From NCBI RefSeq assembly GCF_029961145.1, contig NZ_JASBRG010000007.1, positions 2,770,189 to 2,834,188 on the forward strand: DNA of 64,000 nt. The letters run 5' to 3'. Position numbers and translations under genes: made by a program. Below the pieces are notes generated by a model. That model searched no databases and was not told where the DNA came from. It saw only the letters and a program-made list of their open reading frames with translations. This stretch comes from Pinibacter soli. GTDB lineage: Bacteria; Bacteroidota; Bacteroidia; Chitinophagales; Chitinophagaceae. Below are positions 1,833 to 5,398 of this stretch, one piece after another. The stretch's first letter is position 1. Each line of letters opens with the position of its first letter.

Positions 1833-3167
1833 ATGAAAAAAGACGAAGAAAAAAATAATTCCGTTTCCCGCAGGGCGTTTATGGGCAATACTGCAAAAGT
1901 GATGGCAGGCTTTTTTATTCTGCCCAGGCATGTATTGGGCGGGAAAAGCAAGGCCGGATTTCTTTATACAGCACCTAGTGATATGATTAATCTCGGGCTG
2001 ATTGGAGGAGGTAAACAAGGTAAAATATTATCATCCTATTTCCTGCGAACAGAACAGATTCGCTTTGTGGCACTCAGTGAGGTGTTCAGTGCTAAATCAG
2101 AGCTTACGCTCAAACAGATTAAAGATACGTACACAAAGATGCCGCAGCTGGGCAACTATTCTGATATAGCGGTGTACAATGATTTTCGGGAATTGCTATC
2201 TCGTAAAGATGTAGATGCGGTAGTAATTGCCACACCTGATCACTGGCATGCAGCCATGGCAGTACGGGCAGCAGAAGCAGGAAAAGATATTTATTGCGAG
2301 AAGCCAATGGCCCTTACCATTAAAGAAGGAAGAGCCATGGTAAATGCTACACGTAAATATGATCGCGTATTTCAGACAGGAAGTATGCAGCGCTCCTGGC
2401 CAGAATTCAGACAAGCGGTGGAGCTTATTCGTAACGGCTACATCGGGGAGATTAAATCAGTAAAAGTGAATGTCGGTCCTCCCCCAAAACCGTATGATCT
2501 TCCTGCTGAACCTGTACCGGAAGGGCTGGACTGGAGCAAGTGGCTGGGGCCGAATGAAAAAGTGTCTGTGTACAATGCAGAGCTGGCGCCGCCTGTAACG
2601 AAAGATGTGTATCCAAATTGGCGCAACTACCTTGAATTTGGAGGTGGCATGGTGACTGACTGGGGCGCACATATGTTTGACATTGTTCAATGGGCTCTTG
2701 ATATGGACGGCAGTGGCCCGGTAGAAGTAATTGCCCCCGATGGTGGAGAACATCCATTCCTTACCTATAAATATGCCAACGGTATCATCATGACACACCA
2801 GAAATGGGAATGGAACAATGCCATTCATTTTATGGGTACTGAAGGAGAGATTAAAGTGCAACGTGGTAAACTGGAAACAAGTCCTGCATCGCTAAAAGAA
2901 AAAGTAATTGGCGATGCAGAGAAACATGTGTATCACAGCACGGATCATTACAAAGATTTCCTGAATGCAATGCGTAATAGAACCAAGCCTATCTGTGATG
3001 TGGAGATTGGTCAACGTACAGCAACTGTATGTAATATCGGCAACATAGCTTATCGTCTTAACCGAAAGTTGACTTGGGATCCCGTGAAGGAGCAATTTAA
3101 GAACGATGCAGAAGCCAATCTGTTAACAGGAAGACAGATGAATAAAACATGGGGAATACGTATTTAG
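1833..3167 (+). CDS. Gfo/Idh/MocA family oxidoreductase with Tat signal
   Basis: This 444-residue protein should be a periplasmic NAD(P)-dependent sugar or polyol dehydrogenase-like enzyme. A twin-arginine signal (SRRAFMG, residues 12-18) precedes a hydrophobic stretch. The Rossmann glycine motif GLIGGGKQG lies near residue 55. The family signature EKPMALT near 156 contains the conserved EKP lysine. The C-terminal part shows the usual WGAH/D segment (GAHMFDIVQW). Tat export is common for such proteins in Bacteroidota, since cofactor-bound proteins are exported folded. The gene is monocistronic, between two terminators. The substrate is unknown. Confidence 0.9.
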   Translation: MKKDEEKNNSVSRRAFMGNTAKVMAGFFILPRHVLGGKSKAGFLYTAPSDMINLGLIGGGKQGKILSSYFLRTEQIRFVALSEVFSAKSELTLKQIKDTYTKMPQLGNYSDIAVYNDFRELLSRKDVDAVVIATPDHWHAAMAVRAAEAGKDIYCEKPMALTIKEGRAMVNATRKYDRVFQTGSMQRSWPEFRQAVELIRNGYIGEIKSVKVNVGPPPKPYDLPAEPVPEGLDWSKWLGPNEKVSVYNAELAPPVTKDVYPNWRNYLEFGGGMVTDWGAHMFDIVQWALDMDGSGPVEVIAPDGGEHPFLTYKYANGIIMTHQKWEWNNAIHFMGTEGEIKVQRGKLETSPASLKEKVIGDAEKHVYHSTDHYKDFLNAMRNRTKPICDVEIGQRTATVCNIGNIAYRLNRKLTWDPVKEQFKNDAEANLLTGRQMNKTWGIRI

Positions 3168-3216: not shown

Positions 3217-3234
3217 TTATTGGGCCAAGCGGCA

Positions 3235-3498
3235 CCGTCATTGCGAGCCCTGGCAGAAAAAGGAATATTTGTTAATTGAACCAAAGACAGAAAATCACCA
3301 AGCGGGGCGAAGCAATCTCCGTGAAGTCCGCGGGATTGCTTCGCCACATTCGTTTTAATTGAAGGTTGCCTTTGCTTACTCGAGCATACCGTTAATGCAG
3401 TGGCTCGCAATGACGGCGCGGCTTGCGAGCCCGAAAGAGAAAGAATGTTTACTAATTGAAGCAAAGACAAACAATCAACAAGCGAGGCGAAGCAATCT
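3235..3498. repeat. REP-like palindromic element with imperfect tandem copy
   Basis: A perfect 15-base inverted repeat, ccgtcattgcgagcc at 3235-3249 and its complement at 3402-3416, bounds a 180-base unit. Inside it, ggcgaagcaatc at 3306-3317 pairs perfectly with 3334-3345. A second diverged copy of the left half runs 3422-3498, sharing gcgagccc, ttaattgaa.caaagaca and ggcgaagcaatct with the first. It fills most of the 3168-3541 gap. No coding sequence is supported here. Confidence 0.8.
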
Positions 3499-3541: not shown

Positions 3542-4243
3542 TCAGTCCACTCCCAAATCGTCGTGAATTTTCTTTTCCGGCGTAACCTCGTCTAACTCGA
3601 GCCCAATCTTGTCAGCAATAATTTGATTTATTACGGATTCAACTTCTTTTCTATTTACTCCATTTTCCTTAGTCAAGCTTGCATAATTAAGAGATAGTAC
3701 TTGCCGTGTAAAATCCCTCACTCGTGTGGGAGCAATAACTATACGCATTGGATTAAGCAGTTTCGAAATTAAAGACGTCCCAACAATACCTGCAACAGGA
3801 ATTAAAAGAGTCCATTTTCCATAATCGAAAAAAAAGATAAGAATAAGTGACAGACAAAGTCCGCCAAGAATAGATACAACACCAAAGGAGTTCAAGAAAA
3901 CTTGCAAGGATTTTGTCAGCACTAGTTTCGGAAATTCTAAATTATTGATAGTTGCAAAACGGAAATAAATTTCCCGCCTGTCATCACCCGGAAAAATGTC
4001 ATCGAGTGATGTATCTAATCTAAATTCTTGTTTCGAAAAATTAAAAGTATCAGCAAAAGATTGTCGCAACTGATAAAAAACAGCTTGAGATTTACATCTG
4101 TCACTGTACTTACCTTCCAGATGCCGCCAAACGGAATTGTGAAAGTCGTGTACCGTTATAATCTTTTCAGCTTCCTGGTCAGGAATATTTATGCCGAATG
4201 TTTTCTCAACTTCCATTAGTATTTCTACACTATCTAGCCCCAT
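3542..4243 (-). CDS. Membrane protein with split, permuted acyl-carrier-protein halves
   Basis: With the ATG at 4243 this is 233 residues. The N-terminus begins M-G-L-D-S-V-E-I and runs through FGINIPDQEAEKIITV, which matches the second half of an acyl carrier protein starting at the phosphopantetheine serine (here Ser5). Two membrane segments follow at about 119-139 and 143-162. The last 34 residues (INQIIADKIGLELDEVTPE then HDDLGVD) match the first half of an acyl carrier protein and stop just before the serine position. The frame stays open upstream to 4390, starting only at a TTG, but that extension has no ACP features. It may be a carrier in lipid or secondary metabolism; function is inferred. 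Confidence 0.7.
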   Translation of the reverse strand: MGLDSVEILMEVEKTFGINIPDQEAEKIITVHDFHNSVWRHLEGKYSDRCKSQAVFYQLRQSFADTFNFSKQEFRLDTSLDDIFPGDDRREIYFRFATINNLEFPKLVLTKSLQVFLNSFGVVSILGGLCLSLILIFFFDYGKWTLLIPVAGIVGTSLISKLLNPMRIVIAPTRVRDFTRQVLSLNYASLTKENGVNRKEVESVINQIIADKIGLELDEVTPEKKIHDDLGVD

Positions 4244-4591
4244 GTTTTTTTGTTTTATCAGAAATATCCAATTGGCAACCAATTCAAAAATACACGAAAC
4301 CGGCATTTCTCCAAACCTTGTGAACATTTGTCTCCATTTCATTTTAACAGGCCAACGCACCAGTTCTTCCAAACCCTGTTGCGACAACAAATACTCTCCT
4401 TCTGTGAACCAATTTGTTCCTTCAATCGTTTCCTTTTGTGCGGACTACATCACGTGGCCCAGTGATTTTTTGTAATCCCCTAACTGCCCCTTTATACAAT
4501 CAATAATTCGGTCATTCTCAATCAGCACAACCATGAAAAAATACACATCACTTTGTAGATACCACTGCATTATTAAATCTAACTCTATGTT
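4244..4591. other. Divergent intergenic region without a recognised gene
   Basis: This 348-base gap separates the ACP-like gene (left, minus) from the DUF2490 gene (right, plus). The left 147 bases are an in-frame upstream extension of the ACP-like frame and could be coding if a TTG start is used. I see no clear terminator, palindrome or -7 element. Confidence 0.5.
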
Positions 4592-5398
4592 ATGAACACA
4601 TACAAAAAGTGTGTACTCCTGTTTGTTAGTATAATCGCCAAACTGTGTGTACTGGCCCAGTCACCACCGCCATACACTATGGGCTTTATTCCAGCTTCTA
4701 TAGGAGAAACGGATATTTCTTTTCCCTTGTATGAGAAATGGCACCTGAGCGGGCAAGCAGATCTCCAGATCGTAACGCAGGGAGCTTATACAAACAAAAA
4801 CCCCTTTGCGTACGTGCAGCGCACGGTGTTCAGGCCATGGATCGTGTACTCTGGATTTAAGAATATGAAGCTATGGCTGGGTTATGCGCACAACAAAAAA
4901 TACGAAATAAAAGAAGCAGGCAATTATGAAACACTTGAGCAGCGCCTTATAATAATGGGAACTTATTCGCAAGTGATGCCGAAAGGAAGTCTCTTTGAGC
5001 AGGTGCGTTTTGAAACAAAATTCTTCGACGACAAGAATGGCGTTCACCAAACCGTACCCAGGCTCAGAGCAAGATTTGGTGTAAATCACTTTCTGGGTCA
5101 GCGTAGTACCACGCCCATTTTCCAGGCACCCAATATTTCTTACTATGCTGAGCTGATGCTCAAGTTTGCCTCGAAAGACTATGCAAAAGAAAACTTCGAC
5201 ATTTTCAGAATGTCTGTTTACTACAGTGCCGGCGTTACAAAGAACCTCCATTTCCTGGCGGGTATAATTGCACAAATGCAGTTGCGCACAAACGGCACCC
5301 AGTTTGATGTATACTACGGCCCTATTGCGTCGCTGCGTTACAGCATCAAACCAAAAGAACGGGAAACATTCGACAACGTTGACGGCGGAGCTGACTAA
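4592..5398 (+). CDS. DUF2490-type outer-membrane beta-barrel protein
   Basis: The protein has 268 residues with a signal peptide (hydrophobic 8-22, cleavage after VLA-Q). The mature part consists of alternating amphipathic strands with many aromatic residues, such as WIVYSGFKNMKLWLGYAH, LEQRLIIMG and FEQVRFETKFF. The pattern of a WxGY strand followed by a Q-R-L strand is typical of DUF2490 proteins, small predicted outer-membrane barrels of unknown function. A second, shorter DUF2490-like gene lies at 42382-43104. The ATG start fits the signal peptide. Confidence 0.75.
   Translation: MNTYKKCVLLFVSIIAKLCVLAQSPPPYTMGFIPASIGETDISFPLYEKWHLSGQADLQIVTQGAYTNKNPFAYVQRTVFRPWIVYSGFKNMKLWLGYAHNKKYEIKEAGNYETLEQRLIIMGTYSQVMPKGSLFEQVRFETKFFDDKNGVHQTVPRLRARFGVNHFLGQRSTTPIFQAPNISYYAELMLKFASKDYAKENFDIFRMSVYYSAGVTKNLHFLAGIIAQMQLRTNGTQFDVYYGPIASLRYSIKPKERETFDNVDGGAD

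Follow-up and report, generated by a model that had tools for sequence, protein, structure and literature searches.

The window, a 64,000-nucleotide stretch of the Pinibacter soli genome, encodes on its minus strand, at 3542–4243, a 233-residue protein that a sequence-only reading had taken for a circularly permuted acyl carrier protein (ACP) with a membrane insert. The 233-residue frame was confirmed at these coordinates, on the minus strand; on the plus strand the same frame contains many stops over this interval. The product starts with MGLDSVEI and ends with INQIIADKIGLELDEVTPEKKIHDDLGVD directly before the stop codon. ATG is the start codon in all 24 genes checked; in 17 of these no in-frame start lies upstream of the Met of the MGLD start, the window copy being among the seven that have some. 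Here the frame stays open for 67 codons before M1 (4244–4444, minus strand), a stretch that gave no Pfam match at E 0.01; the remaining 23 genes all reach an in-frame stop sooner, at most 51 codons upstream. Stop codons vary over the 24 genes (TGA 10, TAA 10, TAG 4).

The gene is solitary. On its 5′ side lies a divergent gene for a DUF2490 protein (4592–5398, plus strand), and on its 3′ side, beyond intergenic repeats, a convergent gene for a Gfo/Idh/MocA oxidoreductase (1833–3167, plus strand). The repeats (3226–3498) carry GCGAAGCAATC motifs and include a 59-nt direct repeat at 3260 and 3440 (85%) as well as two inverted repeats, 3226–3249 with 3402–3425 and 3334–3354 with 3477–3497. A tRNA at 1542–1628, away from the gene, is the sole Rfam match of the window at the gathering threshold. 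All-versus-all comparison of 20 regions around permuted genes (17 kb where the contig allowed) retrieved no conserved neighbour; the families common to three or four loci came mainly from the congeners L132, L134, and L135, and were otherwise common genes (pirin-like, aminotransferase, symporter, LysR-type regulator, and MutS, named from sequence starts). PADLOC defence models matched none of the four proteins tested at E 0.01. The features assigned to the gene, all on the minus strand, are as follows.

3542–4243, minus: coding sequence, stop codon included, of a 233-residue putative circularly permuted ACP-like membrane protein
4118–4243, minus: residues 1–42, matching ACP helices II–III–IV, the second half of the outer ACP (PF00550, NCBIfam, PDB profile)
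4238–4240, minus: Gly2 codon, placed by the join test at the position of the phosphopantetheine serine (Ser36 of AcpP)
4229–4231, minus: Ser5 codon, the attachment serine of the sequence-only reading, aligned by the join test with Thr39 of AcpP
3914–4096, minus: residues 50–110, candidate inner degenerate ACP-like domain, equivalent to helices I–III (hhalign; VIA-align on a low-confidence model)
3827–3883, minus: predicted transmembrane helix 1, residues ~121–139 (hydropathy 2.58)
3755–3811, minus: predicted transmembrane helix 2, residues ~145–163 (hydropathy 1.76)
3659–3730, minus: residues 172–195, probable inner-domain helix IV following the hairpin (hhalign of the sister family; soluble-class alignment)
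3545–3652, minus: residues 198–233, matching ACP helix I and the loop to Asp35, the first half of the outer ACP (profiles)

ACP halves in swapped order and the register of their join

The whole protein scores 24.8 bits against PF00550 (PP-binding; cut-off 20.8) over two stretches, the better of which places residues 3–31 on profile positions 32–60, while the last 58 residues alone match positions 3–30 weakly (12.9 bits, E 0.14). In a six-frame search of its own genome the best single PF00550 stretch of the gene reaches 13.7, under the cut-off. Two NCBIfam models divide the protein in the same manner, NF002148 aligning residues 3–37 with positions 39–73 and NF003757 aligning residues 197–233 with positions 3–39. 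PDB profile searches place residues 3–38 on 37–72 of 1acp and, with the A1 profile, positions 198–233 on 5–40 of AcpM (1klp). The N-terminus thus matches the second half of an ACP, as first proposed. Full-length NCBIfam cut-offs are not reached (61.3 versus 71 for NF002148, 54.7 versus 70.45 for TIGR00517); the nearest relative tested against NF002148, L116, scores 70.9 against the same 71. Among relatives with MG starts and DLG ends, six of eight exceed the PF00550 cut-off.

Rejoining the halves in silico, C-half before N-half, gave a single PF00550 match of 29.4 bits over profile positions 3–60, and L023, L036, and L004 likewise each returned a single continuous match. A canonical ACP profile (A7) built from 20 canonical ACPs was then applied to 21 proteins. 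In native order, every one has an N-terminal match beginning at profile position 33 (13.8–42.4 bits) and a C-terminal match ending at 29–31 (0.3–24.2 bits, the lowest being that of L042); after rejoining, all 21 outscore every one of 20 controls with a shuffled C-half. None of the 21 presents helices I-II-III-IV in order in one continuous domain. Two partial matches in native order that fuse into one after rejoining are the mark of a circular permutation. The shuffled-half controls used a join at Ser5, and by these profile comparisons the conclusion of permutation is valid in both the Ser5 and the Gly2 register.

The two registers differ in what they say about the cofactor site. We use E. coli AcpP numbering and take the attachment serines to be Ser36 in AcpP (1acp) and Ser41 in AcpM (1klp). 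In a join test, the C-half was fused to an N-half starting at residue 1 to 8 and scored with the canonical ACP profile for 31 proteins. The best join was at residue 2 in all 31 (means for starts 1–8: 56.4, 62.8, 55.9, 52.3, 51.1, 46.1, 43.0, and 40.7 bits) and was ungapped in 28; the window protein reordered at Gly2 scores 70.7 bits. This register equates Leu3 with Leu37, Asp4 with Asp38, Ser5 with Thr39, Glu7 with Glu41, and Glu13 with Glu47 of AcpP, and the last residue with Asp35, in agreement with the proposal that the C-terminus is the first half of an ACP stopping one residue before the serine. The NCBIfam models and the PDB profile search give the same register. Joining at Ser5 opens a three-residue gap in helix II and lowers the score by 11.8 bits on average, with a lower score in 24 of 24 proteins. 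Among the 20 canonical ACPs of the profile, the serine site is invariably Ser and the Thr39 position varies (T 17, Y 1, A 1, S 1). Ser5 as the cofactor serine was therefore rejected by the join test together with the variation of residue 5 among relatives, and the sequence-only reading erred in assigning it that role.

Because the Gly2 register holds, the phosphopantetheine serine is absent. By alignment, the chain is opened exactly at the equivalent of the Asp35–Ser36 peptide bond, with Met-Gly in place of the serine. Gly2 on Ser36 leads us to regard the protein as a circularly permuted pseudo-ACP that probably carries no phosphopantetheine. The name of the Pfam family whose cut-off the window protein passes, 'phosphopantetheine attachment site', would be misleading should the serine really be missing.

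Conservation and distribution of the permuted family

Among 31 intact proteins, the window protein included, residues 1–5 are M (31), G (31), L (29) or M (2), D (30) or E (1), and S (26), T (3), F (1), or L (1). The helix II acids are Glu7 in 27 and Glu13 in all 31, both present in the window protein. Counting back from the C-terminus, position −5 is Asp in all 31, −4 is L 29, F 1, M 1, −3 is G 30, R 1, and −1 is D 24, N 4, R 1, A 1, G 1. The expectation that all homologues would run from M-G-x-D-S to D-L-G-x-D thus held for the MG[LM][DE] start and for Asp −5; Ser5 is kept in 26 of 31 only, and the end is usually DLGx[DN]. None of the 31 has a complete ACP domain at one of its termini, and none is frameshifted. 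Kept in this many intact proteins from two phyla, the permuted ends are no assembly accident. Since the 31 were gathered mostly with M-G-type queries, the uniformity of their starts is partly a selection effect; the shorter forms were found through N-terminal matches, and their C-terminal ends were read only afterwards. All four Gly codons are used for Gly2 in 24 genes (GGA 17, GGG 3, GGC 2, GGT 2), which suggests that selection and not a recent origin accounts for its invariance. Four of nine gene pairs gave dN/dS of 0.12–0.25, rough ratios given that dS exceeds 1 in these pairs as well, and the other five are saturated at synonymous sites.

The set of 31 leaves out two exceptions (L155, in which the beginning of helix II is missing and a join other than that at Gly2 scores best, and L084, which keeps a DLHID end and has no M-G start), duplicates (L174 and L152, the same genes as L157 and L085; L113 and other duplicate copies), frameshifted or interrupted copies of the 233-residue form (L017, L020, and L043), fragments (L040, of 109 residues, and L118), and a serine-less sister family comprising 15 rows of alignment A6 plus L044, L052, L053, L087–L090, and L158.

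A scan of the same family gave matches at E 0.001 in 277 of 294 genomes, and among the matches listed most short rows span only residues 3 to ~45, as ordinary ACPs do. The full-length form of 218–233 residues occurs in at least 14 of the 294 genomes, the own genome included, the 13 others being 35–63% identical to the window protein; shorter forms comprise at least 12 proteins of 173–198 residues and one of 88 residues. A phylum scan (296 genomes) with the 233-residue profile listed L084 and L085 in addition to the own gene and ordinary ACPs, together with L086–L090, five rows assigned to the serine-less type, of which L086 and L087 were read. With the soluble profile, 26 of 295 genomes of the class matched at E up to 1e-10, 10 over most of the profile length (own included), one of the serine-less type (L158), and the rest partially. 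Four of 199 genomes of Planctomycetota, the phylum of a Schlesneria MAG, matched at 1e-7, three over the full length, the Schlesneria MAG among them, and one partially. One protein from the Planctomycetota sample (L117, 724–1398, minus strand) has Leu5, a DLGAG end, and one hydrophobic segment over threshold, and is among the weakest MG...DLG proteins in the join test. With the 88-residue form as query, the listing from 298 genomes of the order was dominated by ordinary ACPs. The patchy presence of the gene and its broken copies suggest that it is dispensable in some lineages.

The 88-residue relative (L023/L138; 1501–1764 in L023) is a permuted ACP alone, with the inner domain absent and Thr at residue 5, and is the most telling support for the proposed permutation, in which swapped halves are conserved across homologues. 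In two genomes of one genus, a 233-residue form (L127, 8090–8860) and the 88-residue form (L138, 8325–8591) occupy a syntenic locus whose flanks on both sides keep gene order at 79–87% protein identity. Nucleotide alignment of the two permuted genes covers their first 129 bases (73%). The locus is variable, since part of the gene content between the flanks differs. Judged from this comparison, the entire insert was either deleted from one of the lineages or never acquired by it, and both half-ACPs stayed in place, which makes the pair the best evidence for joint action of the two ends. The size of the 88-residue form suits NMR, and the pair at this locus amounts to a natural deletion experiment.

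Similar architecture is seen in the sister family of serine-less membrane proteins (A6: L021, L022, L024–L034, L051, and L086; also L044, L087, and L158). They share an ACP second half, an ACP-like inner domain with one or more hydrophobic segments, and an ACP first half, and in four members (L028, L034, L052, and L086) the canonical ACP profile recognises both halves in swapped order. They differ in that the MG start and DLGxD end are absent, the chain is cut earlier in loop I, and the inner domain is the best conserved part. That inner domain carries the motif C-T-x-Q-Q-A-F-Y-K-x-R ... F-P-R-x-x-R-R. The soluble relatives (173–198 residues) and the 88-residue form share the permutation and the ends, and differ in the absence of a hydrophobic segment in 12 of 13.

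The insert, its membrane hairpin, and structure models

Two membrane helices between the halves had been proposed from the start, and hydrophobic segments do lie at residues ~121–139 and 145–163. Proteins of at least 218 residues have two such segments in 17 of 18 cases (L117 has one); shorter proteins have none in 12 of 13, L153 having one inside its C-half. From a simple count of the basic residues following the second segment, we favour a topology with both termini in the cytoplasm.

With the membrane columns removed, residues 48–112 plus 166–195 of the A1 class align to an ACP profile with an hhalign score of 29.1 (probability 67%), where 40 column shuffles reach at most 13.2. The serine-less sister family treated in the same way scores 28.0 (60%; shuffle maximum 12.5), and its alignment extends through helix IV beyond the hairpin. 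When the hairpin is retained, helices I–III still align to ACP (29.8, 58%). The insert of the soluble class aligns with that of the 233-residue form (hhalign 96.6%), covering the region of residues 172–195 without a hairpin, and matches ACP weakly (19.4, 5%; shuffle maximum 17.1). A sister-family inner domain (L021, residues 71–96) falls on PF00550 positions 2–27 at 17.2 bits, under the cut-off. These alignments provide moderate evidence that the insert is a second, degenerate ACP-like domain bearing a membrane hairpin; the protein is therefore probably made of two nested serine-less ACP-like domains, the hairpin lying within the inner one. Such nesting is what permutation of a tandem ACP-ACP would be expected to give.

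A full-length model computed from two sequences (the window protein and L004) is poor overall (mean pLDDT 58.9, pTM 0.40). It is best in the terminal halves, with block means of 74–84 over residues 1–40 and of 87, 84, and 72 over 201–230, and pLDDT is 35 for the last three residues. Foldseek aligned the whole model with ACP chains over 40–46 columns at rmsd 1.0–2.3, those rows all having E above 1. VIA-align rows for ACPs mostly cover model residues from ~45–54 to 179–194 at Z 5.0–6.2, within the range for which the tool warns of common helical arrangements, and the rows with the best Z for the whole model are unrelated helical proteins. The inner domain alone, itself a poor model, gave ACP rows with Z 4.1 and 3.7 of five chains aligned and Foldseek E of 8.1 and 10. 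In these models the structural likeness of the inner domain to ACP is a hint at most.

Interpretation and competing explanations

ACP is among the most studied small folds in biology. No title or abstract opening among the open-licence PubMed Central papers listed describes a natural circularly permuted ACP, and the family seems to be undescribed. Compared with AcpP (PF00550, TIGR00517, NF002148), the window protein shares the ACP helix sequence, the DLGxD loop, the acidic helix II face, and the IP-D-x-E-A-E-x-I loop, and differs in its II-III-IV-I order, in Gly2 at the serine site, and in the nested domain with its hairpin.

A precedent for an ACP that lacks its serine is the mitochondrial ACP (mACP) of Plasmodium falciparum, which is phosphopantetheine-less and essential as a structural partner, its serine being replaced by Phe (PMC8547962). 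As described there, Glu is kept five and eleven residues after the serine site (+5 and +11), and Isd11 is the partner (PMC8547962). The window protein resembles it in that the modifiable serine is gone and the +5 and +11 acids are kept as Glu7 and Glu13, the sequence pattern of a serine-less structural ACP. The differences are that mACP is mitochondrial and eukaryotic, has a known partner, and is described in the passages on it with no mention of permutation (PMC8547962). The retained helix II face together with this precedent (PMC8547962) leads us to favour a membrane-tethered docking or regulatory pseudo-ACP.

Permutation, register, loss of the serine, conservation, and the membrane hairpin are all shown at the level of sequence. 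Our leading explanation, to which we give somewhat better than even weight, is that the protein is a naturally permuted, serine-less pseudo-ACP with a nested ACP-like domain and hairpin, acting as a membrane-tethered docking module. We infer that the two halves fold into one domain and that it has the topology and docking function given here. Circular permutation of a tandem ACP-ACP would be its simplest origin. The chain would start at ACP helix II and end with helix I, placing the N-terminus of the mature protein (Gly2, should Met be cleaved off) at the phosphopantetheine attachment point. The hairpin would hold the reassembled pseudo-ACP on the cytoplasmic face, and Glu7 and Glu13 preserve the acidic surface of helix II through which ACPs are recognised by their partners. 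Phosphopantetheinylation at the canonical site would be impossible, and the pseudo-ACP might recruit, stabilise, or block an ACP-binding enzyme at the membrane. Because neither a partner nor a conserved neighbour was found, docking is read from surface residues alone. Against this explanation stand the poor two-sequence model (pLDDT 58.9, pTM 0.40), the presence of Glu7 in only 27 of 31 proteins, the weakness of the C-half alone in several proteins, the exceptions L155 and L084, the weak match of the soluble-class inner domain to ACP, and the patchy, sometimes broken occurrence of the gene.

The separation of the matched halves by ~160 residues with a membrane hairpin between them would also suit a domain swap, in which helix I is donated to the bundle of a neighbouring chain and a membrane dimer or polymer with ACP-like joints results. 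We consider this unlikely, given that the 88-residue relative keeps both halves (3–41 and 59–88) with only 17 residues between them, and that the ends to be linked, those of helix IV and helix I, lie close to each other in an ordinary ACP. A working permuted carrier of the kind that the sequence-only reading proposed, in which phosphopantetheine would sit on Ser5 and the hairpin would anchor the acyl or polyketide chain to the membrane, could draw on the GLDS context of Ser5, which resembles many ACP sites, on its presence in 26 of 31 proteins, and on two phosphopantetheinyl transferase matches in the own genome. The gapped Ser5 register, 11.8 bits lower on average, the preference for Gly2 at the attachment position in 31 of 31, and the T, F, or L found at residue 5 in five otherwise conserved proteins, at a position (Thr39 in the better register) that varies in canonical ACPs too, make such a lipid or polyketide carrier quite unlikely. 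Docking leaves the invariance of Gly2 unexplained, which may leave room for an N-terminal modification. In one such proposal, the Gly2 α-amine, freed by Met removal at the site where Ser36 would bear phosphopantetheine, would carry an acyl or other group in an amide linkage, buried in the hydrophobic pocket of the ACP fold at the membrane. This would explain why Gly stands there in 31 of 31, to the exclusion of Ser, Ala, and Thr, and why the DLGxD and GLD loops are conserved without the serine; we nonetheless hold it to be very unlikely. If true, it would describe a carrier free of both serine and phosphopantetheine whose chain ends were moved to the cofactor site for that purpose.

Loss of the serine, patchy presence, and the broken copies L017, L020, and L043 would likewise be expected of a decaying gene, a functionless remnant of a tandem ACP. 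Invariant Gly2, Glu13, and Asp −5 in 31 proteins from distant genomes, dN/dS of 0.12–0.25 in the four unsaturated pairs, and retention of both halves where the entire insert is missing render decay highly improbable. Next to no credence is due to an ordinary ACP misread through a frameshift, an assembly error, or a missed start: the open frame upstream of M1 speaks for it, and against it are the lack of a Pfam match in that frame, the starts and stops of the compared genes, and the identical end pattern of the 31 proteins. An ACP opened at its cofactor bond and given an N-terminal Gly that is invariant in 31 proteins asks what purpose the fold serves when it is unable to carry.

Ordinary carriers are encoded elsewhere in the same genome. 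Besides the two transferases, five other PF00550 matches exceed the cut-off, with the serine in a DS motif in four and in GS in one, and the permuted protein is therefore not the carrier supply of the cell. Viral contigs yielded nothing in a second scan and two loci in a first, both canonical ACPs. On these IMG/VR contigs (L147, 1415–1666; L148, 2875–3132) an ACP of 83–85 residues with its serine lies just before a gene for a 191-residue protein.
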